From positions 1 to 22,290 of the forward strand of contig MU633829.1 in assembly GCA_026770595.1 (NCBI GenBank): DNA of 22,290 bases, written 5' to 3'. This stretch comes from Ochromonadaceae sp. CCMP2298 (taxonomy: Eukaryota; Sar; Synurophyceae; Ochromonadales; Ochromonadaceae). The translations under genes were made by a program, and so were the position numbers. Position 1 is the stretch's first letter, and each line of letters begins with the position of its first letter. Shown here one piece after another: positions 715 through 21,700 of the stretch. The notes beneath the pieces are model-generated. The model saw only the letters and a program-made list of their open reading frames with translations, searched no databases and had not been told where the DNA came from.

Positions 715-3700
715 GTACGTTAGCCCACAGTCTGCCTTTTCGTCTCGCCTTGCAACCTTCCTCGTTTTCCTCGCCTGACTGGTACCTTTTTGTTACCCCC
801 CTACCCCACCTCCACACCCCAACCCATCGCAGAAGTACCCTCGGCGCCCTTCCTGGACCTCACTGTGTTGAGTGACACGTCTATCAATGCGAACTTCTCA
901 TCTCCTCTGTCTGACGGTGGCTCGGCCATCACCAGTTTCAAGGTGGAGTGGGACACGGATCCGGGTGTGCAGGAGGTGCAGTCGATCACGACCAGGTGTG
1001 TGTTGGTGTGGGTGTGTGCCTGTATTCTGCTTGTGTTCTGTTGTGGTAGTGTGCTGGGAGCAAGTTTCAGTGCCACCGTAACATGCCTATAACCCCTAAC
1101 CCCGAATCCCTCTACCCCCACAGCACCTACACTGGCCCCAACGAGATCCAATCCATCACCACCACCGCGACCCCCATCAATGAGATACAAGTAGTCGACA
1201 TGTCCGCCCCTGCGGTCCTGGAGGTAAGTAGATATATATAGATAGATATACATATATAGCTATAGATAGAGATAGAGATATATAGCATACTGTACATGCC
1301 AATATCCATATCATTATGCCACTTTAACCCTTATCACCCGCAGGTACAAGAGATCCTCGTAACGGGAGCCACCGGCGGCTACTTCTTCCTCGAGCTCAAC
1401 ACAGTCGCCACCGGCGGTTCTCTGCAGTACTCGGGCTATATCTACGTCTCCTATCCCGCGGACGACTCTTCTGGCAACACTTTCGGCAAGAACGTCGCAG
1501 GTATTCAACCCACCTTTGTTGTACACACTCTATTAAACCCATGCTCTTTTTGTGATAGAACCCACCTTGATGTGTTTTTTATCTCCTTACGCTCTCTTAT
1601 CTCCATCCCCCCCTACACCCTCCTGCAGACATTGTGTCCGCCATGAGTAACGTCAAGACCAACGGGGTAAACAATTCTGGATTTTAAATTGAATTTTAGC
1701 ATAATGTGACTCCTAATCTGCCTACTTCCCCCGACTCCCCCCTACATCCACTCATATATCCACTCATATATCCCCCCTAGGTGGTAACCGTCACCCGCGA
1801 GACAGTCGACGCCTCCACGTACAAGTACCTGGTGACCTTCCCCGAATCCATGGGGGACGTGGAGCAGATGGTACACACCCCTCCTACACGCCCCTCTTAC
1901 ACCCCTTCACACCCCTCCTACACCCTTACACACCCCTAAACCCCCCTCCTAACCCCCCCTTCTACCTAGGTCGTACACACCACCGAGCTAACGCCCGTCA
2001 ACACCGCCTCCGCTGCAGTCTCGACCGTTTCGGCGGGTAACGTCATAGCGGGCAGTTACACGCTCTCATTCGGGGGCCAAACGACCGCCACCATCGCCTC
2101 CGACGCGACGGAGTCCGAGGTACAAAACCCACCTTTGTTGTACACCACTCTATCAAACCCACCCTTTGATGCTTTTTTTGTGATACCCACCTTACCTCTG
2201 ATGTCTTTTTATCTCCTTACGCTCTCTTGTTATCTCCACCCCCCATCCCTGCACCCCCCACACAATCTATTTTATACCATACTACCATAATATCATAATA
2301 AACCTCAATTAATTATAACCCTTTTATTATATACCATAATATCATTAAAACCCTCTTATTTAGGTACGCGTGGCCCTCGAGGCCCTCTCAACAGTGGACT
2401 CAGTGGCCGTTACGCGTTCCACCGTGGACTCGCAGAGAGGTACTTAACACTTCTATAGTATACTACTATACCACCTACTAATACACTGCTATACACTACT
2501 AACACACTACTATACTACTCACACACTACTACACACTATGCACCACTATACACTATACAATATAGGTTATGTGTGGACAGTGGAGTTTAACGGCGCCATG
2601 ACTGCCGGTAACGTGGCCGCCCTGATCGCCTCCTATTCAGGTACACTGTCCATGGTTTATGTATATGGTTTATGTCTGTACACTTATATGTCTAGTTTAT
2701 TATTCCTTTCTTTTGGTTTATATGACTATTCCCCTCATATTTAACCCCATTTAACTTCATATCTCTATATATTTAACCCCTTATCTATGTCTATTTACCC
2801 CCCCCCCCCGCTTAGGCCTCACGACCACCAACACCGCCGCCCCCGCCTCCGTATCCGTGTCCAGCATCGACGGCAACGAACTAGGGGGCGCGTTTACGCT
2901 GTCCTTCACGCACGGGGGTGTTACAGGTACACACATGTCATGTACTTATGTGTTATAATACTAATACATCTAATCTTCACTTACCACTCTTTATCCCCAC
3001 CCCCACTCCTCTCTTTCACATACACAGAGACCGCATCCGTGGCCTACAATGCCCCCCCCGAGGACCTCAAATCCGCCCTAGAATCCATGGCCAACAACAT
3101 TGTCCCCTCCGGCACCCTCTCCGTCTCCCGCACGGGCCCAGACGACCAACGGGGGTATTCCTGGACGGTAACGTTTTTGTCCGACTACGTACGTACTTTT
3201 GAGGGCAACCTGAGCCCCCTGGTGCCCAGCTTCGGCGCACTGACGGGGTCCGCTTCACTCGTAACAGTGGACGAAATCCGCCAGGTAGGAATTACATGAA
3301 AGTCGTCTTTTTATCCCCCCCTGGTGCCAAATCTGGACTTTTAACCTTGTTTCCACAAACGACTGGATTTTTTTATGTTTTCCTTTCATGGGTTTTATTC
3401 GAACACAGGGAACGGTCAAGGAAGTACAGCAGATCGCGGTAACGGGCACAGTGGCAGCGACCACCTACATGCTGCTGGAGTACGACGGTTACACCACCAC
3501 GCCAGTGCTGGTGCGCCCGTCCTCGGGCGCCTGCTCCTCGTCCGTCACCGAGGTGCAGACCATTACCTCCTCTACCGTGGACTCCAGCCAGGCGGGGGGA
3601 GACTTTGACGTGTCCATGTACCTCCAGTTCCGCCTCATCTACGGCACCGAGATCACCAACTGGATATACGCCAATGAAGCCTCCACATCCGACTGCTCAG

Positions 3701-6700
3701 CTACCGCCGATGCGATTCGGGACTCTCTGGAGTCGTTCACGTTCTTCGACGTGGTGACCGTTACGGGCAGCACTGTCTCTGCTTCCTCCATGACCTGTGT
3801 ATGGACGGTCTCCTTCGTGAGCTCCATTGGCGACATAGAGCCGTTACAAATCATGGTACGCAACCCCATATCGGGTGGTGTGGGCTCAATCGGTTCCTCA
3901 TCGACCGCGTCAGATGACACCCTTACCGTCGCAACCCTCACAGGGGGGGAGAAGGATGCCATCAAGGCGGCTCTTGAGCTGCTGCCCAATGTAGGCACTG
4001 TAACGGTTAGCGACAGCGGCACCCAGGGCACTGGGGGGGTTTGCACATGGATGGTCACTTTCGACACGAACGCGGGCAACCTGCCTCTGCTGCAGGCCGT
4101 CCTGTACGACTCCTCGGACGTAACCACCACCTCTGTGCAATCCTCCGCAACCACCTTTAGCACCATCACAATCACCATCACCCAAGACACGGCCGGCACA
4201 AGCCAAGCCATCGCGGGAAACTTCGCCCTGACCTTTCGTAACGCACGGTCCATCTACGTTCCCTTCGACGCCGACGCCAGGACCGTCAAGTTCATCCTGG
4301 AGTCGCTAGACACCGTAGGAAAAGTGGACGTTACGCGCTCCAACTCAGATGAGAACAACGGGTACACCTGGATGGTCACCTTCCTCACCGAACTGGGCTC
4401 GCTTGACCTGATATCTTTCGACGGGGGGGATATGACGGGCACGGTGGTTGGCGGGGTGGTGTCCAAGGACGTGGTGGGCGTGTCGCCCCCCTTCAACTCG
4501 CTAGATATCGTGAACAAGCTGCCCCTCGGCTCGGCCATCATAACGAACCTAGCTAATATGGCGATAGCAGTGGAGGAGCTTGACGAGGGCATCGCCTTCT
4601 ACTTCCGCGTGGCAGCCATCAACGCAGTGGGTCAGGGGCCCTACGCCTTCTCAGCGGTGCCCTACGCCATCCCGCAGTCCCAGAGGCCCGGCCTGCCTAC
4701 CACCTCAGTATTGGATATCGTAGATGGGACCAGTCTGGAGGTGACCTTCGCGCCCGCTGCACTCGACGGGGGCGAGGACGTTACCTTCTACAGGGTCGAG
4801 TACGCGAACCAGGTACGTCTCCCATACATATACATATAAACCCCAACTATACATACACAAACATATATATACATACTCATATAAACCCAAATTATACAAA
4901 CATACAATAAACCCACTGTTTCACTATATCTGTTTCACTTTATAGGCGTTCGCATCGGAGGTGCAGCAGCTGCAAGCGGAGTGCGAAGTGGTCAACGAGA
5001 TACAAGTGCTGACCTCGAGCACCACTCAGTCCATCCAGGAAGAGCAGATCGTGTACATCTCCACCAGCTATGCCAACGTGGACACAAACGAGCAGCAGCT
5101 GGTAACGTGCGACGCCACTGGCGGCTCATTCAGACTGACCTTTGCCGGTTACACCACGTCCGTCACGATCGCGTACGATGCGGGTGCAGCTGCCATCGAG
5201 GCAGCTCTGCAGCAGATCGAGATCATCTCAGACGTTACTGTGGCCTTCTCTGGCACGCAGACCACCGCCTGTTTCGAGCGCACCACCACCACCCAGAATG
5301 ACGGCTTCCTTGTCACCTTCAACAATATCGTGGACATGGATGGAAACCTCCCCCTCATGACGGCCTCCACTAACTCACTAAAGGGCGCCCGTTATATCGC
5401 TATTTCCGAGACCATTCCGGGCGATGCAGGCATCGGCGGCACCTTCCGTCTGTCTTTCCGCGGATCCATCACTGAAGATATCGAGGCGACCATCACCTCC
5501 TCCAACTATGCAACAATAGCGGCAGACATACAGACCAAATTGGAGCAATTGGACACCATATCTACCTCAGGGGTGACCGTTACGTCGGCGCAGGGGGAGC
5601 TGGCGACGTCGGACTTTGGCCAGCTATACCGCATCACATTCACAGGTATTTATATATATATATATGTATGTATTTAACCCCCTCCTTCTATAATATAATG
5701 TGTATTTAACCCCTCCTTTTAAACTATATATGTGTATTAAACCCCCTCTCAGGTGCCGATCTGGGCGGCAACGTGGAGGCCGTGCAGAACGTGGACTACT
5801 TCGACCGACTCACCGGATCAGACGTCAGCATTGTGGTGCTCACGGACGGTTTAGAGACCTCCGCCGAGCGGGGCTTCGCCGCTACCTCCTCCGTGGCGGG
5901 TAACGAGATCGCCGGTACCTTCGCGCTCACCTACAGGGGCCACACCACAGAGGCCATCGACTTCAACGTGGCCGACACCGTGCTCAAGAGCAAGATCGAG
6001 GCATTGCCAAATATTAATACCGTGTTCGTCACGCGCACCGGGCCGAGCGTGTTCAAGGAATATGCGTGGTCTGTCACCTTCCTCAGCATGCCCGGCGCCT
6101 ATCCTGATGGTACAGAGAACCTCCTCGAACTCGTTCCTGACTTCTCAATGCTTGAGGGGACTGGCTCAAGCGTCGCTGTAACGGTCCCGCAGGACGGCTC
6201 GGAGCCATTGTCAGGAACATTCTCTCTCACCATGACCACTGGCGATTCCAACGTGACCGAGGTGGCGTCCAACATCCCCGCAGACGCGTCGGCCTCAGAA
6301 TTGCAGGTAGGTGTCCAAATCACACAAAAGACGTCTTTTTATCGTCCCCTGGATCGAATCTGGTCTTTTCACCTTGAAGACGCATTCGCTAACTGATTTT
6401 TTTCCAATTCGGACGCCCCTCAGGCCTACCTGAACGCACTGGAGTCCGTAGGTACCGTGTCGGTGTCCCGAAACGACCTGTCTAACGGCTACCAGTGGCT
6501 GATCACGTTCGACGGCTGCAAGATCGTGAACGGCTCAGATGTGTGCAATCTGGGGGATGTGGCTTTATTGGGCGTTAACAATACACTCATGACGTGCGGC
6601 AGCTCCCTAGGAAGCACGCCTATCTCTGCATCACAGGTGGTGCAGGGCAGCGGGCCCGCTGAGTGCGCAGAAGGGCCGTGCTTCGGGTACGTAACGGATA

Positions 6701-9700
6701 TGGATGTGTATTAATCCCTATATATTAATCCCTCACATGTTTATGTATATTAATCCCTCTTGTATTAACCCCTCTATACTAGGTACGTTACGGATCTCTC
6801 CGACGACACCCTCTCCCACACAATCTCCTCCCTCACCGCCGGGGAGCCCTACTACGTACGCGTAGCCGGGCATAACTCAATCGGCTTTGGTTATGCCGCC
6901 CACACCGCTCCGGAGTTCCAAGTGCCTACCTACAACCCCCCCGGCCCTCCCCCAGCGCCCCGATTGGTCTCCAGTACCACCACGAGCATTACTGTGGAGT
7001 GGGACTATCCCCGAGAGAACGGCGGCGCCACTGTAAAGGGCTTCCAGCTGTGGGTTGACGACTGGGCAGGTGGCAACCCCCGCCTCGCGTTCGACGGCAT
7101 CGACCAAGATTTAACCACCTTCACCATCTCTGCTTCTACCTCGTTCGTACTGGATAGTGGGAAGAGCTACAGGTTCTTCGTGAGGGCTGTGAACTACTGC
7201 TTTGCCAACAACGCAGACAAGGCATGCCTGTCCGAGTTCTCCCCCTCATCGGTCTTCACCGTGCGCGCCCCCAGGGCCCCCCTGGCCCCCCCCATGCCCT
7301 ACCGCCACTCTGCTTCCAACATCGGCACTGTTGCGGGTGCAGACGGCGCCATTGTGGTGCGCTGGGCCCCCGCGCTGGACAACGGCGGCTCCGTTATCAC
7401 CAACTATAACATATACCATGCAGCCCCAGCGGCCTCCGCCTACACTGAGGTGGTTCTGGGCCTCCCCACGCCCGTCACCAACGACGCCTCTGAAGTATTC
7501 GAGTACGAACTAACCGGACTAAAGGAGGGCAATGTCTACCGCCTCTATGTGGTGGCGGTCAACTCGGTAGGGAAATCCGCCGCCTCCCCCATCCTCTCCC
7601 TGCTGGTGGGCATGCTTCCCGGTGTCAATGCGAGCCGTGACAACACCTACGCCTCCATGAGCCCATCCGTTACGGCCGTTTCATCCACCGAGATTAGGTA
7701 TGCTATACTCTATGCTGTATGCTATATGCTATATATTATTATGTTCTATAAACTATGTACTATACTGTTATGGATAGCAGGTGAGACACACCCCTAACGC
7801 CCCTACCCCTACCCCCTACCCCAAGCCTCTTCTGGCCCATGCCCGCCTCCTCCTCCACAGGGGGCATTCCCATCACCGGCTACAAGCTGTACGCATACGC
7901 CGGCGTGGGGCTCAACACCCTGGCCAACCCCCAGACCGTCTTCAATGAGGCTCAAATGGTGCAAACCTCGGTCGACGCGCAAACCCCTGCCGTGCAGTTG
8001 GTGACCATCCCCTCCAGCGTGACCTCCTTCTCCCTCTCAGGTACATACTATATATATAAAACCCTCATCATAACACAACAATATCTCTAAAACCCGCATT
8101 ATCTCTAAAATCCTCATTATCTCTAAAACCCTAGGCTACGGGCAATCCGGCGCCCAGACTCTGTCCCTCTCCAGCTCCACTGCGGCCATTGCCACCTACG
8201 TAACCACCCTGCTCTCCAGCCAGACAGGCTTCTCCGCCCTGGCGCCCACCGTCACAGCCTTCAGCACGGCTAACGGGTTAACCAGCTTCGAGATCACCTT
8301 TGACGGCCGCGACGGCACAGGTAAAACCCTCCTACACAACAACATTTCTAAAGCCCTCATTATAACACAACAATATTTCGAAACCCCAACAATATCTCTA
8401 AAACACAGTGATCGACCTGGTCGTGGCCACGCTGCCCGTCTCCACCACCTCCAGTGTCTCTACGCTGATAGAGGTATTCTCCCAAATCTTGTCTTTTCAC
8501 GTCAAACATACGCTATTGTTTTTCTAAAACTTTATACTTTATGGCTTATCTTATTCGGTCTACGGACGCCTTTCAAAAACCCTCATTATAATTCAACAAT
8601 ATCTCTAAAACCCTCATTACAACACAGGGCACGGAGGCCATCTCAGGCTCCTTCACGCTGTCCTTTAACAACTCCATGTCGGTCGATATGCCTTACGACG
8701 TCAGCGAGCAGGAGATGAAGGTAAAACCCTCATTACAGCACATAGCTCTAAAAACCTCCTCACAATATCTCTAAAACCCCACCGCCCTACAAACCTCCAA
8801 CACAAAAACATCTCTAAAACCCTCATTACGACCCTAAAACCCAGGCCTCGCTGGAGGACCTACCCGGCGTGGGTACCGTCACTGTCACCCGCACAGCCAC
8901 CCTTATCTCTGGCGTGGACCGCAACGCATACAGCTGGGCTGTTGAGTTCGACTCAGCCGCAGGCGACCTCCCCCTGCTCTACGCCACACCTGGCCGCCTC
9001 ATGCCCCTAGCCTCGCATTGCTCTGTGGCCGTCGCGGAGGTGGTTTCGGGCACGGCTGTGGTTTTGGTGTATGACGGCACGGGCGTGCCAGATGTACGAA
9101 CTGCGAGTGTGAGCAGCTTGGTCTCTGACCAGACCTACTCCTTCAAGGTAAATACATGCACCATTCACCATTAAAATACATACTTACACCAAACACTCAC
9201 ACTAACACCATACATACATACCATTCACCACACACTTCCACACACACACAGGTGGCGCCTATTAACGCCCTCGGGGAGGGGGTTTTGTCTGCCGCCACGG
9301 TAACCGTAGTGGCCAGCTCCGGCGCCTCGCCCCTATACACCACCGCCAACGGTTCCTCTCTGTACCAGGGAATTACATATTCCGTGGACGAGGAGCAGGT
9401 TATCACCGCCACTAACTGCGACTCAACCCTGATGGCGCTGCGCTACGGGGCCTACTCCGCTAACCTGACCAACAGCCAGACTGAGGCCGAGGTGGAGGCG
9501 ATCTTCCTGAACACTTTTTTCACCACAGGTATACCCATTATTTCCCATTTATATTACCCATTAACCCTATTATACCCATTATAATAACCCTATTATACCC
9601 ATTAACCCTTATTATACCCATTCCTAACTAGTGGACGTAACGCACACCACCTCCACTGACGGCTCAAACGAGATCGACATATGGCGAGTGGTCTTTCTGG

Positions 9701-12700
9701 ACGCCGGTGACGTGCCCTCTGTGACTGTCACGACGGTCGCAGGGTGCGTGGTGGGGGTCGAGGAGTTCGTCAAAGGTACCCATTAAGATCTTAATATTAC
9801 CCATAAATATTACCCATTAATCCTATTAAACCAACTTTACTGACCCTTCTTATACCCATTAACCCTTCTCATACAGGCTCCCGCAACCAGTTCACGATTG
9901 AGCCGAAATCTGCATCGGGGCAGGTGCTGCGAGACGTCACCACAGCGATAGGGTTTGCCGGCCAGGTATTACTATACTTATTCTACTATTATACTCGTAT
10001 TATACTCATTATACATATTAACCCTGCTTATTAACCATTACACGTATTACATATAAACCTTATTATATTATACCACCCACACGCACCTCCCCCCAACACC
10101 TACACCCCCCCGATTACAAAACAACAATACGACAAATACGACAGGACGTATTCTTCACCGAGACGCTATTCGCCAACGCCTCATGGTCTCGGGACCAAGG
10201 CGTGGCACTGTACAACGAGGTAGGTATTATGTTATACATATTATATTACTATATTATATTACTATACATATTATGTACTATATTATGTACAACGAGGTAG
10301 GTCTACTTATTATACAAACCCTTATACCCATCATACATACTATGCATATTAATCGCTTATTATTCCCTTACACATATTAACCCTTATACCCGACCCTTAT
10401 ACCCATACAGATGGTGTACGAGGAGCAGTCCGTCACTATCGCCCAAGCATCCCTAGCTAACGCAATAGTACTCGAATTGTCCGACTACCTGACCCCCTAC
10501 TCCACGGCCTCCTTCGCAGCCGCCTCCATCACCGGCACATCCAGGTACAGCCCAAAACCCATATTTATATATTATACATGTGTATTAAAACTCCTCCTTC
10601 TATACTATAATGAGTATTTAATCCCCCCTCCAACCCTCCAGCTCCTTCGCAGTGCAGCAGGCGATAGAAACCATGGCCAATGTGGATTCCGTGGACGTAC
10701 AGCGCGTCGTGGCGGATACCGGGGACGTCTCGTATCTCATCACGTTTCTGTCGAATCTGGGCGATGTACCCATCCTCACCACATCGGGAGCAGCGACCAT
10801 CAGCGAGGTATATACCAATTACTTTAATACCAATTACATATACCAATAATATCAACTATTTGTCTGGACTCGCAATAACGCCTACATCCTCCTCTCTTTC
10901 CACACCCACCTACCTCTTTTTCCACACTACCTATACCTCCCTCCCACTACCCCCCCCTCCCACGCAAACATACCAACATTTATATTTAAACCCAGGTGAG
11001 CAAGGGTCAGTCCGAGGTGCAGACACTCACAATAGCGGCTGACGAGGAATTCATCCGAGAGGAAAAGCTGTTCTCCATCCCTACTGCGGCCGTCTCCGCC
11101 ACCCTCACCTTCGCAGGTATGTATTTATGTGTTTATGATTGTATGTTTTGTGCATAAGTTACGTACCTGACCTCCCTCATTCCCCTCCCCCCCTCATACC
11201 CCCCTCTTCACAGGCACCACCACCTACACAGCAACACTCACCACCATCAGCGCAGCTACTATCGAGGCCGCGTTGGAGGAATTCTACGGCCCCAACCTGT
11301 CCCCCCTGGTTGTCGCTGTGACCCAGATAACCTCCGGCACGGATGAGGTGTACACCATAGGTGAGGGCACAGTCCCATTACATGTTATATACAGTCTCAT
11401 TATATACAGAACACTTATTATACTATCCGTATACATATTATACACTAACACTATTATACATTCCCACCAGTCTTCACATCTCCTGTGGGAGATGTGGGCG
11501 AGCTGGCCGTAACGTACGACGTGGGTGGGGGGGGTGTGGATGTGGTAGTGGTCGAGGCTGTCAAGGGCGTCTCCCCTGTCTCCGGCACCTTTACCCTCTT
11601 CTTCGAAGGTAAAAAAAGCCATTATAATTATTTAAACCATTTTATTAAACCCATCAAAACCCTTTTTTTTTAACCCATTTTATTGATTAAACCCATCTTC
11701 TTTTAAGGGTACTACACGGACGACCTAACGCACGACGCATCTGCGGCGGAGGTCAAGGTAAAACCCTCCTACGCAATATCTCCAAAACCCTCAAAACAAT
11801 ATCTCTAAAACACAAATATCTCTTAAACCCACCCACTCGACTGTTCAACCCTAATAAAACCCAGGCCGCTTTGGAGAATCTGCCTACCATCGATACGGTC
11901 AAGGTGTACCGAGAAGACCTCAACAATGGTACGCATATCTATACTATTCTTTATTATACCTATACTATACCTATACTATACTGTTTTATACCAATACTGT
12001 ACTTGACCATTTGCGTATTAACCCTATATATACATATATTATATTATATTATTAAACATTATTATACACATATACAGGGTTCAAGTGGACCGTGAGCTTC
12101 ACAAATAACGTGGGCAATCTGCGCCTATTGGTGGCCAACGACTACAGGTATGTCTCTATTAAGTATTTTAATCCTCCCCTGTCTATTTATCTTTTTTAAT
12201 CCTCCCCTGTCTATTTGTGTCTTTTAATCTTCCGCTGTCTCTATTTCTGTCTCTTTATCCTGCCTATACAGATACGAAATCCAGCGCATCTGGACGGCCG
12301 GCGGCACCCCCACCCCTTTGTCAGGACAGGTTATGCTGTTCTACGGGGGGGAAACCGTGCTAGGTAAACCCATCAAAACCCATTATATATATTAAAACCA
12401 TTATATTGAACCCATCATATTTATTAAACCCATTATAGTCGATTTCGACGCTTCGCACCTGGAGATGGCGGCTGCCCTCACCAGCATGGCGTCCGTGGGC
12501 CACGTGGAGGTCTCGCGCAGGTACCCATCGAAACCCATTATATTTATTAAAACCATAATATTAAACCCATTTTATCATATTAACCCCTCATTCCCCCATC
12601 CCCCAGCACATTCACCAACGGTCAGTACTCATGGCTCGTCACTTTCCGCAACTTAGTCGGAGACATCGAAAATCTGGGGGTATCAAATCTGCCCCTTTTC

Positions 12701-15700
12701 GGCTCAAACGCCACCGTTTACATCGAAAACATAGTTGAGGGGAATAACGACACTTTGCTGGGCCCTACTCCGACTCTGAATGTGTACGAAAAGGAGGCCG
12801 GCAAGCCCGACTATACTTCTTTGTATACGATCGACACGCCGGGAACCTTCCTCACCCGTGTGACGCAGCTGGTAGCGGGCGGGCTGAACGCGCTGTACTA
12901 CGACAACCAGTGGTTCTATGGCACCCCCTCGGCCCGCATCGACCCCCTCATAAACTTCGACTTCTCTACCGGCTTTGTTACGCCGGACAGCAGCGACCAC
13001 GTGTCCATCAGCTGGTCCGGCAAGATCATGCTCCCCAAGACGGAGGTTTACACGTTCTACCTGACGGCGGACGACTCGGCGATGCTGTATCTCAACCACA
13101 CCTTGCTGGTCAACACCACCGTCTGCTGCATCGAGCACCGCGTGCAGCTGCTGATGGAGGCGGGCGTCTACTACGACATCCTGCTGAACTACGTGGAGCT
13201 CACCGGCGCCGCCGCCATCTCCCTCAAATACTCCTCCAACTCAATCCGCAAGCAAACAGTCCCCCAGGGCGCCTTTTTCTCCGGCACCGACATCGTTGGC
13301 TCCCCTTTCAGCACCACCATCGTCCCCGGCGCGGCGGATTACCCATACACCACCGCCTACGGTGCTGGCCTGAGCAACGCCCAGGCGGGCAAGCCGGCGT
13401 CGTTCTTTGTGCAGACGAAGGACTCGGAGGGAAACAATCAAACCGTGGACTTCGAGGACTTTAACCCAGTCGACCTGCTGAAGGTCACGATCACGGACGG
13501 CTCCACAGTCTACTACGCAGACCTCTCCTACCTCGGCTCAGGCCTGTTCGAGGGCACCTACACCCCCCTCAGGGCCGCCAACTACACCCTCTCTATTGAG
13601 ATGGGGCAACAGAACATCTACTGCGGGCTGGGCGAGGCAAACAAGTGCTCCCCCTTCGATTTGCTCATAATTCCCGGACCCACAATCCCCGCCGTGTCAG
13701 AGGTATTTAACCCCTCATGTATATTTAACCCCCAAACTCAAATATGTATTTAACCCCATACTAAAATATGTATTTAACCCCCTCTCACCATTACCACCCA
13801 TAATCTACATTACATTTATATTATCTATTATTATCTGCAGGTGGAGTCCCCCTCTGTCGACATGATGGACTATTTGGTGGAGGCGGTGGCGGGCGAGTAC
13901 GGCACACTCTACATCCAGGCTAAGGATGCGTTTGGAAACAACCAGATTGTGGGTGGGGACGCGTTCAGAGTCATCTTCACCCTCCTAACGGACAGCGCGG
14001 TGCAGTACCAGGGCACTGTGGACGACCAGGGTGACGGCACGTACACGGTGAGGTACACCATTCCCACGGCGGGCAGTTACGACGTGGCCGTGACGCTCTC
14101 CTCGGTCGAGGTGGTGGAGTCCATTCTGAGCTGCGTGGCCGCCTCGGCCCCCTATGTGTACTCTCGCTACTACGACGGCCTGGACGCCTGGGAGACGCCC
14201 TCTTTCTGCGATCTAGCCCATCCCACCCTACTGGTCGTGCACAACGGCCTCAGCACCCCCTCCAGGTGTGTATAAAAAACCCTCCTATACTAAAATGTGT
14301 ATTTAACCCCATCCTATACTAATATGTGTATTTAACCCCCTATACTGAATATTAAACCCTCAGCACCTCCACCCACGCCGAGGCACTGGCTTACGCCACA
14401 GTGGGTCTGGAGAACACATTCACCGTAGAGGCGAGAGACATATTCTCCAACCTGCGCTCAGGTAAGTCCAAACCCCATATTATATACTATATGTGTATTA
14501 AACCCCCTCGTATACTATAATGGGTATTAATCCCCCAATATTGCGTATTTAACCCCTCATATTTAAACGCCTCCAATTGTGTAATTAGGCGACAACACAA
14601 CCCACTTCTACGGCTACGGCAACGGCAACAGCGACTACTTCGTGGTGGAATTCACACAGCCAGAGTCCGCAGGTAAAACCCAAACCCCCTCCTTGTATGA
14701 ATGGGTATCAAACCCCCTACTTGTATACTATAATGAGTATTTAACCCCCAATTGTGTATTTAACCTCTCCTTTGCCTTATTTTAACCACCTCCCAGACTA
14801 CCTCCGCCGCTCGTCCGCTGTCGATTACATCGTAGTGGAGGCCCTGCCCACCGGGGTAGAGGGCTTCTTTAGACTGTCCTTTGGGGGGCGGACTACGGAG
14901 GATATCCCGCATTCTGTGAGCAGTACGGGGCTGGAGGCGGTGCTGGAGCGCCTGCACGACTACCAACTGGACGTTATTGTGCAGAAGACCGTGTCAGGTA
15001 AGACATACTTTTTAGGGTGTTTACAGGTACAGGTACTTTAACCTCTCTAACCCGCTCCCTCCCTCCCTCTCTCCGTCCCTCCCTAGCCCTCGGTGCTACA
15101 GATACCATAACCTGGTCCGTAGAGTTCCTCACAATGCTCAACGTGTGGCAGTCCACACCCCCCGCGGGCCCCGCCACCGGCCAGCAATTGACCCTGGTTG
15201 CACCTACCGCCTACTCCGGCAGTGATGCCTTCTACGACCTCATGTACCTCACCCGCCCGGCCTCGTCAGGTATACCATGTCTTTACCCCCTCTCTCTTAC
15301 CATGCAACCCCCTCTGTACTAAAATGCGTATTGAACCCCCTGTGATCATACATTTAACCCCCTCTATACTGTGTTTTAAACCCCCCAGGCGTGTATCCTA
15401 TGTCCTTCACGCTGTGGCATACGGGCACATACAACGTCCGCATATTTAACAACGGACAGGACATCCAGGGCTCACCTAGGTTATACTCATGCTGTATATT
15501 CAACCCCCTCTATACTATAATGTGTATTTAACCCCCTCTTTCTATATTAAAATGTGTATTGAACCCCCTCTTTCTATACTTAAATGTGTATAAAAACCCC
15601 TCTTCAGCTCTATCTTCGTCTCAAACGCCTCCGTCGACCCCACCTCCTCCATCGCCTACGGTGCAGGACTGGTGGGGGGTGTGGCGGGGAAACAAATCAG

Positions 15701-18700
15701 CCTCACCATACAGGTAAAACCCCCTCCTTCTATACTATTATGTGTATTTAACCCCCTCCTTCTATACTAGTATGTGTATGTAACCCCCTTCTTGTATGTT
15801 ACTATGTGTATTTAACCCCCTCTATAATGTGTATTGAACCCCCTAAGGCAAAGGACACCCGCCAGCCCTCCGTGCAGTACATAACTACAATGGCTGTGGT
15901 GGTGCCCTACACCTCTGAGATACAGTCCGTTACACTGGGCAACTCGTCACCCCTCACGCTGACCTTTAGGGGCCAGACGAGTGGCTCTATAACACTAGGG
16001 AGCACCACCTACGCCGGTCTGCTGAGCATGCTTAACAACATGGGGGCCGTGGGGGGCGTCACTTTGCTGCAGACGAACGGCGCTGCAGTCGTTACCACTG
16101 ACGTACTGACCCCCGGTGCAACCTTCTGGGTGCAATTTGACAGCCTCACGGGCCCTTTGCCCTCTATGACATCTGCGGGTGCAGTGGTTGACACAGTGGT
16201 GCCCGGAGATGCGCCCTACAGAATACCCGTGCAGGTGGTGAAATGCTTCGCCGCCACCACTCAAACGGCCTCTATCTCTCTGGGTGAACTTAGTATCACA
16301 TTCCAGACCACTGCCACCATCGCATCCGTAGAGACTCTAATGTCCTCCGCATTCGGGGCGGTCACCCTCAGCAACCCCAATATCGCCGATGTGGATGGGC
16401 TTTTCTGCGGCACCGCGCAGTCCATCTTCGTCACCTTCGACATCAAAGGCCCCACAGCCTCTCTGACCACCACCACCCCCGCATACATCACCCCCTCCAC
16501 GGCAGAGGCCGACGGCGCCCTGGGGGGGATTGCGCCCTTCTGGGGTACATTCAGTGTCGGTGCGCATGGGGAAAACACCACTGAGCTATCCTTCGACGCG
16601 TCGGCTGACGAGGTACCTATAATGCGTATTAACCCCTCTCTTTCTATACTATGTGTATTGAACCCCCTCTTTCTATACTATACTATGTATTAAACCCCCT
16701 ACAGGTCAAGGACGCCTTGATGGCCCTCTACTCTATCGGAGATATCACCGTCACCAAAGACACCTACGGCCGCGCATACACGGCCGCCGGGGGCGACGTA
16801 TACGCAGACAGTACCACCAACCACATCTACTCCACCTGGACGATCGCCTTCACCGGCGCCTGCAGCGGCAACGCTAATGGAGTGGCTTCAAACCTCTGCC
16901 CCACCTCGCTGGGCGATGAGCCCTTGCTGCACATTAACAACCAAAACATCGCCTTTTTGGACTCCCCCCTCACGCACCAAGACGCCCCCTACGTGACCAC
17001 GCAGCGCAGGTACTAACCATAATACAAATACCACATATATACATACATAAACATACACACTATAATAACATTCAGTACATACATACTATACTAACATACA
17101 TACTTGACTAACATATACCAATACACATTAGCCTCAAGGGGTACCCAGGAAACAACCGCCTGAATCACGACGAGCTCAGTGCACTCTCTGTCACACTCAC
17201 GGGCCGCACCACTGGCGCTATGATTGGTATGAACTCTGTGCAGGAGCTGCGCTGCGCGCTCAACGGCCAGTCCTTCAGCGACTCAGGCTTCTTCGTGCAG
17301 GTACATAATACTAATATAATACATATAATAATACATAATATAATATACTAACCACCATAATACAATATACCACTACATACTACCAATATACCAACACTAC
17401 AGTTCCTCAACACCACCTTCGCGGTAGACCCATCCCTGACCGTCGCACAATTCGGGGATCTGCTGAGCGCACAACTGGGCGGGGATTTCAACACATCTGT
17501 CGCCTCGAGCACGCCTCAGAGGATCTGCGCCCTCAACGAGACCCTCTCTACGCAGATCACCTTCCACAGCCCCACAGGCGTGGCTTTGCCCATTATACAG
17601 GTATATAAACTTAGCATTATACTAACCATCTACCATAAATTATACCACCCATACATACTATACACATACTAAATGTATAAAATACTATACTAACCAATAT
17701 ACTAACATACCAATATATACAATAAACACTACCACCCATAGGTTATCAAGGCAATTATGGCTACTGCCGACGTGTACCCCCTCGTGCAGGTACGTACTAT
17801 GCTCTATGCCTGAACACCATCAATACGCTCTATAATACTAACACGCTCTATAACTTAATAACCATCTACGACGTATATTCCCTCAGCCGGTAGACGCCCG
17901 TTACGAAAGTGATTCTCTGGGCCTCTACACGATCGCATACACGCCCACGGTGGCAGATATCTACGACATAACGGTAAGTTTATGTATGTATATGTATGTA
18001 TGTATGTATCTTATATATGATTCCCCACCTCTCTTCCTACTAACAATCAATAAATTAATAATATAATTAATATCAATTAGGTGACCATCGACGGCATCGA
18101 CGTCTCGACCGACCTGACTGCGGGTGCGGAGGTGGTCCCCGCCCTAGAGTACTCCGCCACCTCCACCCACAACGTGTCCCAGGTATGTCTATTTGTCTAT
18201 TTATCTATTTATCTCTTCATCTTTGTCTCTGTATCTGTCGTTGCCCATTATACACACTTACACCCCATATGTATTTAAACCCAGGTCAACGTCGAGGGAG
18301 TTAGAGAGTACTTCACTGTACAGCTGAGGGACGCGTTCGGCAACGAGGTAAAAAAAAAATCCAATGGATTTAAATTCTGATATATTTTTTGTACATAAAT
18401 TTTTGCATATCATTTTTTAATATCATCTTTATCTATACCAATACCCATACCCACACCCATATAGTTGGTTGGCCCCATGGCCCACGATAGCCGTTTCATG
18501 CTCACGCTGGAGGGGGACGCGGACTCCTGCCAGGGCGACAGCACTAACGGTCTGATCAAATCATCAATCTTGATGGATGTGCTGGATCGCGAGCCCTACT
18601 CCGACGGTAAGTGTATTTATATGTATTTATGTTTATGAATTTATATGTATGTATTTATATCCCCCACCTCTCCTTACTAATATTTAATATCAACACAAAT

Positions 18701-21700
18701 AGGTATTTACTCCATGTCCTACCTCCCCACAACCTCGGGACGGTACAACATGTCTCTACAACTGCTCACCAAGGGCGGTCTGCTGGCCACGTATTACAAA
18801 AAGACCTCCCTTACTGAGCCACTGCTGGGCTCCGAGTCTAACCGCCACGACGGGACTTACCACCTACCCAACTGGTAAGTGTATGTATTTATTTGTATCA
18901 CCTCTCTTCTTACTAATCAACAATATCAAAATCGCTTCTTACTAATGAACAATATCTAACAATATCAAATAATTAATATCTAACAGGTGCGACGGGCTGC
19001 AGGCCGGAAACTGGTCCACTTTCTGGACATTCGGTACGCCCTCCACTGAGACCTTCTGCGACCTCAGTATCGAGGGCTGCGGCTGCGACTCCACCCGCCT
19101 GGACTCCAGGTAGGTCGAATTACCCAAAATACGTCTCTTTATCTGTCTTTTTATCATGATCCCTACCCTATTCTGTCATTTTCACCTTGAACATACGCTA
19201 ACTTTTTTTCTAAAATCCATTTTTTACTTTGGTTTGTCTAATTCGGACGCCTCTCAGCCTCTCATTCGACTTTGGCTCCAACACCCCCCTGCCCTTCGAC
19301 GGCGCCTTTTCAGGTATTAAATCCCCTCCTTGTATACTATAATGTGTATTTTAAACCCCCTCTCTTAACTGTGTATTAAACCCCCTCTATACTTCCAGGC
19401 CACTTCCCCAGCGATTTCTTTGCGGTCAGGTGGGAAGGCTACCTGACCGCCCCGGGCAGCGGCCTGTACACCATCACGGTGGCTTCGGACTACGGCGCAT
19501 CCGTGACCATCAACGGTACCTCTTACATCTCTTCAGTCCCCCTGACAACCGCCTCGGCCGCCTTCAGCATCCACCTGACTGCGGGCGAGCTGAACGCTAT
19601 CGAGATCGTGTACACGCACAACAAGGATGAGTCCGCCTTCTCCGCCTCCTGGTCCGGCCCCCTCGTCGCCCCCCAGATCTTGTCCGGCGCGCACCTCTCC
19701 TACGCTCGGCACGTTATCAACTCCCCCCTACCGGTCTACATCTACCCCGGGGATATCGACTCCTCTACCACGTCCGTTACGGGCTCCGGTCTGGCGGACT
19801 GCACCACCATGACCAACTGCTCCTTTATCGTGCAGTCCCGCGATACCGTGGGTAACAACATCCACAACTTTGGAAACTGGGACTTGAACGTGTCCCTTTT
19901 CGGGGTGGCCGACTGGGCAGGTAAGGTTTGGGTTCAATACATATTTACGTCATAGAAAGAAGGGTTTAATACATATTTTGGGAATGCATATTCACCCCCA
20001 TCTTCCTAACATCTTCCTAATCCTTACCCCCCTCCCCCCCTTTATCCCCTATAGGCTTCGATGCATCCAAGACGCAAATAAATGACGTTAACGTTACGGG
20101 CGTGCAGCATCTTAACTACACCATAGAGCCTTTGGGCTGGGTGGAGGTGGGGGTCGGAAGCACCCACTTCGGCTCCAGAGCTCTGCTGGTTGCCGCCGAC
20201 GTGACGGATTTGCTCTCTAGAGGTACATCAATCATACTCACACATCATAAAACTATCATAACACTCAATACCACCATAACACTATCATAATACTCAACAC
20301 CACCATAACACTATATCAACACTACCATAATACCCTCAGGTGACACAATCGTAATTGTGTCAGAGACGATGCTGATCTCCGACCAGGGAGACTTTGAGTT
20401 CTCCAATGGGGTGACCACGGTCCCCCTGAGCCGCCCCTACATGGGGGATAACGTAACCACCACTGGTAAGTTATGCCAATTATCACCAATTATGCCAACT
20501 ATCATATCAAATATGCCAACAACCAATTATCAATCACACCTCTTACAATTTTTCTTATCACCCACACCCATGCAGTGTACAAAATATCCAACTGCACTAC
20601 GGGCAAGTACCTGGTCACCTATTCGGGCAGCATCCGCGGCTACTACCAGGTAATGATCTTTTCATAAGTAATGATTTTGTTACATAATTCATATTTTTCC
20701 TAACTCAACTCCTCATATTTTACCATTACCTTTGAACCAGATAAACCTGATGACGCAAAGTGTGAACGAGAGGCAGTTCGTGGAGTTCCTGACCGAGGTA
20801 CGTTTACTGAATACTGATTATGTTATACTTATTATATTATATTAATTATGCCAATAATACTTGTATTATCACCTCAAACATCTTATTACCTCACCTACAC
20901 CTACACCTACACCTACACCCACACCCACACCTACCCTTACTAATAATGTGTATTGACCCCCCTCTATGGTACACATCCGCATTTAAACCACACCTACAGG
21001 GGGATCTTGGGGGCAATTACACCCTTACGGTTGTTTCGCACATGGGCGGTGCACTGGTCTCCGATACTACCATATCGCTCGCCCTGGGCGACTCCGCATC
21101 CACTGGGGTAGATATCGCCACCGCGCTGAGGGACCTGGATAGCGTCTTCGAGGTACGTTTATACATACTAATTATGCCGATTACCAATTACAATTATCAA
21201 GTTGCATCATTTAATCCTCTAACTTATATCACACATATTAATCATACCTCTACCACACACTAACTCATATCACCTATCACACACCACCTAACTCCTATAC
21301 CACCTATTTGTCGCCTACAAACACAGGTGGAGGTGGATATGGTGCAGTGCAACAGCACATCCTGCCAGTTCTTCGTTACATTCATGGGTGTGGATCAAGA
21401 CATCGTGCCCATCCAGGTATGCCATTATGGAGTCTCCGAATATGTATCCGATTATGGAGTATCTAGTTATGTTTCCGGTTATGTCGGTATATAGCGTGTG
21501 TATTATCCCCCCCATTACACCTATCTCTAACCCTTACCTACTATACCTATGCCTATCCCCCACCCAAAACCCTATCTATACCAATTTACCCCATACAGGT
21601 CTACTCCGAGCACGTCACTGGCAACTCCCTATCCGTCCAGGTGACCGAGATGGTTGCCGGCTCCGCCTCCCAGGATATCATCTCCTCCCCCTTTAGATTA

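Follow-up and report, generated by a model that had tools for sequence, protein, structure and literature searches.

A survey of 3,325 genomes, 520 of them Tara Oceans assemblies, reports introners (repeats that create spliceosomal introns where they insert) in 175, and in its passages on algae the same article calls some algal introners MITE-like (resembling miniature inverted-repeat transposable elements), citing an earlier study (Gozashti et al. 2022, PMC9860276). For Micromonas, the sense bias of such introns is read as reverse splicing in the account of Verhelst et al. (2013, PMC3879977). Introners are already known, and the family described here is a further instance, set beside the published ones by description. 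It is represented by four introns of a giant gene in contig MU633829.1 of Ochromonadaceae sp. CCMP2298, numbered 12, 15, 20 and 55 in an initial annotation that proposed an introner origin for them. The window is the whole of this contig (C96; 22,290 nucleotides), part of an assembly (G000) of 11.25 Mb and 724 contigs. The four introns are very probably copies of one introner family, a non-autonomous repeat of about 150 nucleotides that creates spliceosomal introns; the proposed origin is supported by copies in unrelated genes and by relatives that are uninterrupted at the site of intron 12.

An iterated profile seeded with six copies describes similarity over about 147 positions and has 105 matches in 223 kb of examined sequence, a sample enriched for matches since most of its loci were chosen through them. 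A profile built from the 101 copies outside the window recovers introns 12, 15, 20 and 55 with the E values listed below and has no other window match at E < 1 (next best, E = 1.2), confirming that one intron sequence is present in these four introns. Against the reversed window and 20 block-shuffled windows the best E of the full profile is 3.7. The limits of the four introns were redrawn by eye, and the features placed in them are as follows.

3285 to 3408, + strand: introner copy 1 (intron 12), degenerate, with the 3' end TTATTCGAACACAG and not AATTCGGACGCCTCTCAG (E = 8.2e-17; blocks; relatives P0129-P0133)
6307 to 6423, + strand: introner copy 2 (intron 15), six of six blocks exact (E = 2.8e-22; P0122 shares the element at the site)
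6308 to 6328, + strand: 5' terminal inverted repeat arm of intron 15, TAGGTGTCCAAATCACACAAA (sequence; family repeat of 18/21 from the consensus and pattern matches)
6387 to 6393, + strand: CGCTAAC then a T-run in intron 15, putatively branch-point-like (block position)
6399 to 6419, + strand: 3' terminal inverted repeat arm of intron 15 (pattern match, 3 mismatches)
8474 to 8575, + strand: introner copy 3 (intron 20), 5' part eroded and 3' AG lost (E = 8.5e-16 over 8481-8575)
8576 to 8627, + strand: non-introner tail of intron 20, a AAAACCCTCATTA type repeat that gives the acceptor (repeat family D6/D14; sequence)
19110 to 19257, + strand: introner copy 4 (intron 55), top window score (E = 2.8e-25; BLAST query, 40 of 105 candidates scored, self included)
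19196 to 19202, + strand: CGCTAAC then a T-run in intron 55, putatively branch-point-like (block position)
19233 to 19253, + strand: 3' terminal inverted repeat arm of intron 55 (pattern match, 1 mismatch)

Translation places introns 12, 15, 20 and 55 in phases 0, 0, 0 and 2, the two phases initially given. The six blocks described as shared by all four introns are all exact in introns 15 and 55, but only two of the six are exact in intron 12 and none in intron 20. CGCTAAC with its T-run is taken by us to be a branch-point-like motif. Intron 20 (8474-8627) starts with GTATTC and has its family similarity limited to 8481-8575, the element ending in CGCCTTTCA without an AG and the intron extending 52 nucleotides to a later CAG. 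It has the form of a compound intron, an introner without an acceptor joined to a repeat of another intron type, and the AAAACCCTCATTA type repeat of its tail is common to neighbouring introns. The window copies score lower than most collected copies and are probably older insertions, an age reading to be set against the bias of the collected set toward well-preserved copies.

The description of the exons around the four introns as non-homologous holds in part. Flanking peptides of introns 12 and 15 come from related repeat modules with a weak blastp match (E = 1e-4), as do those of introns 15 and 20 (E about 0.01), but in both pairs the matching modules carry the intron at differing module positions. 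The flanks of introns 12 and 20 have no mutual blastp match, and those of intron 55 have blastp matches at chance level only. A PA14 match starts in the exon block 3' of intron 55 at profile position 43, and the PA14 domain would begin in the exons around this intron. Duplication of coding modules, dismissed from the outset, does not explain the shared sequence, since the hosts are unrelated and the matching window flanks are out of register.

The genome-wide search proposed with the initial annotation finds more than 100 copies, in unrelated genes. Five of the 105 profile matches are without clear ends and three of the remaining 100 are duplicates, leaving 97 unique copies with both ends placed, in which the similarity runs up to both splice sites, the profile spanning the ends. 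GT and AG were selection criteria of this set, and 100 GT-AG introns out of 100 therefore carry no information. At one profile match, C115:6537, the acceptor is not clear. A 19-nt core (up to 3 mismatches) occurs at 113 places genome-wide, split 56 to 57 between the strands, compared with one in the reversed control. Because 71 of the 105 profile matches carry this core, the genome total may be about 170 copies, a crude figure from a set biased to well-preserved copies. The 100 core places listed among the 113 sit on 56 contigs, with 16 on C185, where random placement on equal contigs gives a mean maximum of 2.3; C185 (17.6 kb) is an extreme introner hot spot, RPB1 included. BLAST searches with intron 15 (40 of 99 candidates scored) and intron 55 (40 of 105, self included) give, among the scored candidates and with self excluded, longer matches of 72-89% identity at E < 1e-14 and seven short end pieces of 89-94% identity at weaker E. 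Four 10-kb pieces chosen irrespective of copies contain none, as expected at about such a density; a fifth piece is all N and was unused.

Copies at C209:3793-10766 and C223:10276-16082 have identical ends and flanks, resembling an assembly duplicate or a haplotype pair. A bin of two mixed species is unsupported, the tetranucleotide composition forming a continuum once the all-N segment is dropped, although the copies are very uneven. Three exact patterns have no match in viral contigs, in a search from which records close to the window's genome may be excluded.

Contig C185 encodes RNA polymerase II RPB1 and has at least 14 introner junctions in translated open reading frames (ORFs). In one segment conceptual splicing across 11 junctions lengthens the longest ORF from 240 to 1057 amino acids, and a second segment gives a spliced C-terminal domain (CTD) ORF of YSPTSPA repeats with 3 further junctions. 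Junctions 205, 440, 505, 559, 626, 737, 817 and 871 are locally ungapped against solved RPB1 chains (by eye), the nearest alignment gap at 205 lying a few residues upstream, and the junctions from 559 to 1000 are each ungapped against at least one of the metagenomic homologues P0001, P0003 and P0012 (by script); near 918 there is a gap in P0001 and P0022. Because the junction alignments are ungapped, with no residue gained or lost, insertion leaves the residue number unchanged at the aligned RPB1 sites. Eight other spliced ORFs were compared with Pfam, six of them matching (kinesin, TTC21, a DUF4455 protein, a TauE transporter, phenylalanine-tRNA ligase (PheRS) alpha and a HEAT/mTOR-domain protein) and two giving no match. 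TTC21, DUF4455 and kinesin genes are linked to flagella. The PheRS host protein has a signal-peptide-like start (by eye). Contig C620 encodes phytoene desaturase (NCBIfam; matched over part of the gene, below the model's full-length cut-off) with an introner copy farther downstream in the gene. Together, the phytoene desaturase, the flagellum-linked genes and the PheRS start suggest that the host is a flagellate with plastids. Conceptual splicing of the copies restores conserved proteins that are gapless at the junctions.

The copies sit precisely at (C)AG|G, with CAG at the exon end before the copy in 79 of 97 cases, CAG at the intron end in 91 and G as the next base in 75. With 120-nt flanks the frame is open in 78 of 97 copies at the unshifted acceptor, in 66 with a shift of +1 and in 53 with a shift of +2; the corresponding counts out of 97 are 40 for antisense and 10 when the intron is retained. 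The coding score, which was trained on the window gene alone, is higher in sense than in antisense for 88 of the 95 copies (from the 97) with long enough flanks, and the seven not favouring sense include one RPB1 copy that is certainly sense. Flanks are coding-like in 85 of the 95, with 79 of these better in sense, and the other 10 fall below the coding threshold; the background value is 44% of 788 overlapping windows from the four pieces chosen irrespective of copies (P = 7e-21).

At the site of intron 12, five of ten homologues (P0129-P0133) give coverage and all five are ungapped across it at 53-63% identity, so that the proposed check for absence in relatives comes out, at the protein level, in favour of an introner. 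In P0130 and P0133 no gap falls at any of the ten positions of introns 3-12, and the other three span most of these introns with gaps near 11, or near 6 and 11 (the alignment of P0132 covers introns 4-12 and is gapped at intron 11). P0132 is on a 21.1-kb contig and P0133 on a 12.6-kb contig, the longest in the cluster of P0130 is 40.9 kb, and in four of the five relatives the similarity stops after TSST(V) and an intron-like tail follows, at a place where the window is intronless. Contigs of such length (12.6-40.9 kb) that carry tails of this kind are most likely genomic. Gain of the introner of intron 12 in the lineage of the window would be the simpler reading of these protein alignments. 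The 2.4 kb of window from 996 to 3408 contains ten introns, one of them an introner, that are without counterpart in P0130 and P0133 and mostly so in three more relatives; for the other nine introns, loss in the relatives is possible.

Intron 15 has eight homologues, two of which end short of the site. P0121, P0123, P0124, P0125 and P0127 (50-71% identical) are ungapped across it, on contigs that could be cDNA, and P0122 (exon 98% identical) continues directly into the same element at this position and appears to be a second allele or strain carrying the insertion. Homologous ORFs are uninterrupted at the RPB1 sites, again on contigs that could be cDNA. One of these, P0055 (a 987-nt contig), is 98.7% identical over 155 residues and spans junctions 737 and 817, and after SPQ it has an intron-like tail where G000 has no intron. 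Because of this tail P0055 is probably unspliced at SPQ, with the introners at 737 and 817 lacking or already spliced out.

The conserved ends of the element hold both splice sites (GTAGGTG...CCTCTCAG), the termini being TAGGTGTCCGAATTA and TAATTCGGACGCCTC. At 18 of 21 positions the usual 5' end, TAGGTGTCCGAATTACATAAA, is the same as GAGGCGTCCGAATTAGATAAA, which is the 3' end in reverse complement; the two ends form an imperfect terminal inverted repeat (TIR). A 3'-end pattern with up to 3 mismatches is found at 71 places, compared with none in the reversed control, and these include 5' ends in reverse because of the 18/21 agreement. End similarity within a copy is 9.4 compared with 6.5 when shuffled. 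Variants of the 5' end (GTAGGTGTAGGTGTTGTAGAATTA, GTAGGTAGAATTA and GTACGGTTAGAATTA) and of the 3' end (TCGGACGCC, TCGGTCTACGGACGCC and TCGGTCTACGGCC) suggest subfamilies. Among the 60 best-scoring copies, 37 have a predicted fold that joins the two ends by at least 8 base pairs; the mean z is -1.1. Nine copies have CTG on the left and all nine have CAG on the right, though AG was required for inclusion. CAGG as a target-site duplication (TSD) was rejected: the +1 G is present in 32 of 48 better preserved copies but in 43 of 49 eroded ones (P = 0.016), a difference opposite to that expected from decay.

Given an introner, movement as DNA is moderately favoured. Each insertion in sense into coding sequence would produce a new spliceosomal intron that is spliced in the cell, the repeat would spread as a MITE-like DNA element moved in trans by a transposase, and selection would remove antisense or unspliceable copies. 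The contending RNA route is less likely but a serious rival; in it a spliced intron would enter other mRNAs at CAG|G by reverse splicing, be copied into cDNA and reach the genome through recombination. It fits the exact insertion with target duplication undetected, the position of both splice sites inside the element and the sense orientation in coding sequence, and it was argued for Micromonas from the same pattern in the text of Verhelst et al. (2013, PMC3879977), but it leaves the 18/21 inverted repeats with no obvious role, though an RNA stem is possible. A DNA route accounts for the TIRs and an RNA route for the missing duplication and the sense bias; the sense bias alone does not choose between them. 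Several results weigh against an introner moving as DNA. Left and right flanks show no locus-specific identity, and hence no TSD signal, in any register from -14 to +6 (all |z| < 2 over the 97 unique copies). Cut-and-paste DNA elements usually leave such a duplication; one made of an invariant AG or CAG would look the same as target preference. The likeness of TIR arms within compared with between copies is not significant (P = 0.09), nor is the association of 5' with 3' type (P = 0.06), and the 71 listed end-pattern places include no widely spaced TIR pair. Eleven PIF/Harbinger-like DDE_Tnp_4 transposase matches lie above the family cut-off (C296, C669, C503, C443 and 7 further contigs); the family TIR is absent at the four of these loci that were inspected, which lend no support to a Harbinger-type transposase as partner. 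No copy is clearly outside sense coding sequence among the 95 scored of 105, which also fits reverse splicing. The relatives were compared as proteins, so intron loss in them is an available reading, and with 45-nt flanks the frame is open in 98 of 99 cases at acceptor shifts of +0, +1 and +2, for which reason the case for splicing leans on the RPB1 alignments instead.

Other origins of the four introns are less probable still. The occurrence of all four in one repetitive gene would suit local gene conversion or module duplication that spread one intron to four places, and there is a mild excess of nearest neighbours on the same contig (13 of 97 compared with 6.4 expected, reached in 50 of 2000 shuffles). 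Such an origin is very improbable, as copies are genome-wide with a mean identity of 0.797 within and 0.795 between contigs, and introns 12 and 15 sit at different module positions. Introns 12, 15 and 55, the three included in the alignment (intron 20 was left out), are each nearer to copies on other contigs (C209, C185) than to window copies, and conversion restricted to the window gene, the alternative raised in the initial annotation, fails on this point. That a mobile repeat landed inside pre-existing introns is improbable: intron 20, in which the element gives way to 52 nt of a different intron type, has the expected form, but most copies are similar up to both splice sites and site 12 is intronless in five relatives. 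Convergence on common splicing signals or an intronic non-coding RNA would draw on the branch-point-like motif and T-run among the blocks and can be set almost entirely aside, since the similarity covers about 147 positions and the window gives no Rfam hit at the gathering score.

The window holds other introns built from repeats. Tandem 29-32-nt units (TATAATGTGTATTTAACCCCCTC) make up the introns at 5646-5752, 15480-15607, 15714-15847 and others. The unit is found genome-wide at 232 places (up to 3 mismatches; reversed control 0), 13 of 14 of its groups in the examined segments (up to 5 mismatches) are on the strand of the local introners, and three examples outside the window are inside GT-AG introns of unrelated genes (by eye). 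It contains a branch-point-like TTTAAC and a pyrimidine tract and is possibly a second intron-making repeat. The introns 1501-1628 and 2120-2363 both hold CCCACCTTTGTTGTACAC and TTTTTATCTCCTTACGCTCTCTT, a possible further intron family. Tentatively, and with rather less than even confidence, these observations may be joined into a broad intron invasion, ongoing or just past, by several intron-making repeats, namely a sense-only TIR element without TSD and the tandem 29-32-nt class, with most of the roughly 60 introns of the window gene (a count from the initial numbering) being recent gains. If so, a sense-only TIR element perhaps couples a transposon end to transcription or splicing.

RPB1, with at least 14 look-alike introns in a highly conserved gene, makes a compact case for reading intron gain; for most of its introners, solved structures or homologues fix the position to the codon, and relatives are uninterrupted at the sites tested. 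A TIR element that lacks a detectable TSD and is confined to the sense orientation is informative on the question of DNA or RNA movement of introners. Compared by description, the family resembles the introners of Gozashti et al. 2022 (PMC9860276): unrelated genes share introns that are alike as far as both splice sites, TIRs are present, insertion is at AG and the copies are enriched in genes. A notable parallel there is family 4 of Acanthoeca sp., given as having "TIRs but no TSDs". In the Aureococcus example described there 12 bp are added, unlike the present family, which has its splice sites at the conserved ends and adds no residue. Fungal introner-like elements (PMC4457414) are likewise reported to be repeated introns gained in genes without TSD, but they are described in PMC9860276 as being without TIRs, and the TIRs present here set the family apart from that fungal type. 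Amoebophrya introners (PMC7789003) also have inverted repeats between the intron ends; they are described as mostly non-canonical with direct repeats of 3-5 nt, whereas here the introns are GT-AG with no locus-specific direct repeat. The introner elements of Micromonas (PMC3879977) share with this family the many repeat introns, the sense orientation in transcribed regions and the novel gene positions, and on the descriptions compared their authors favoured reverse splicing, unlike the preference for a DNA route given here.

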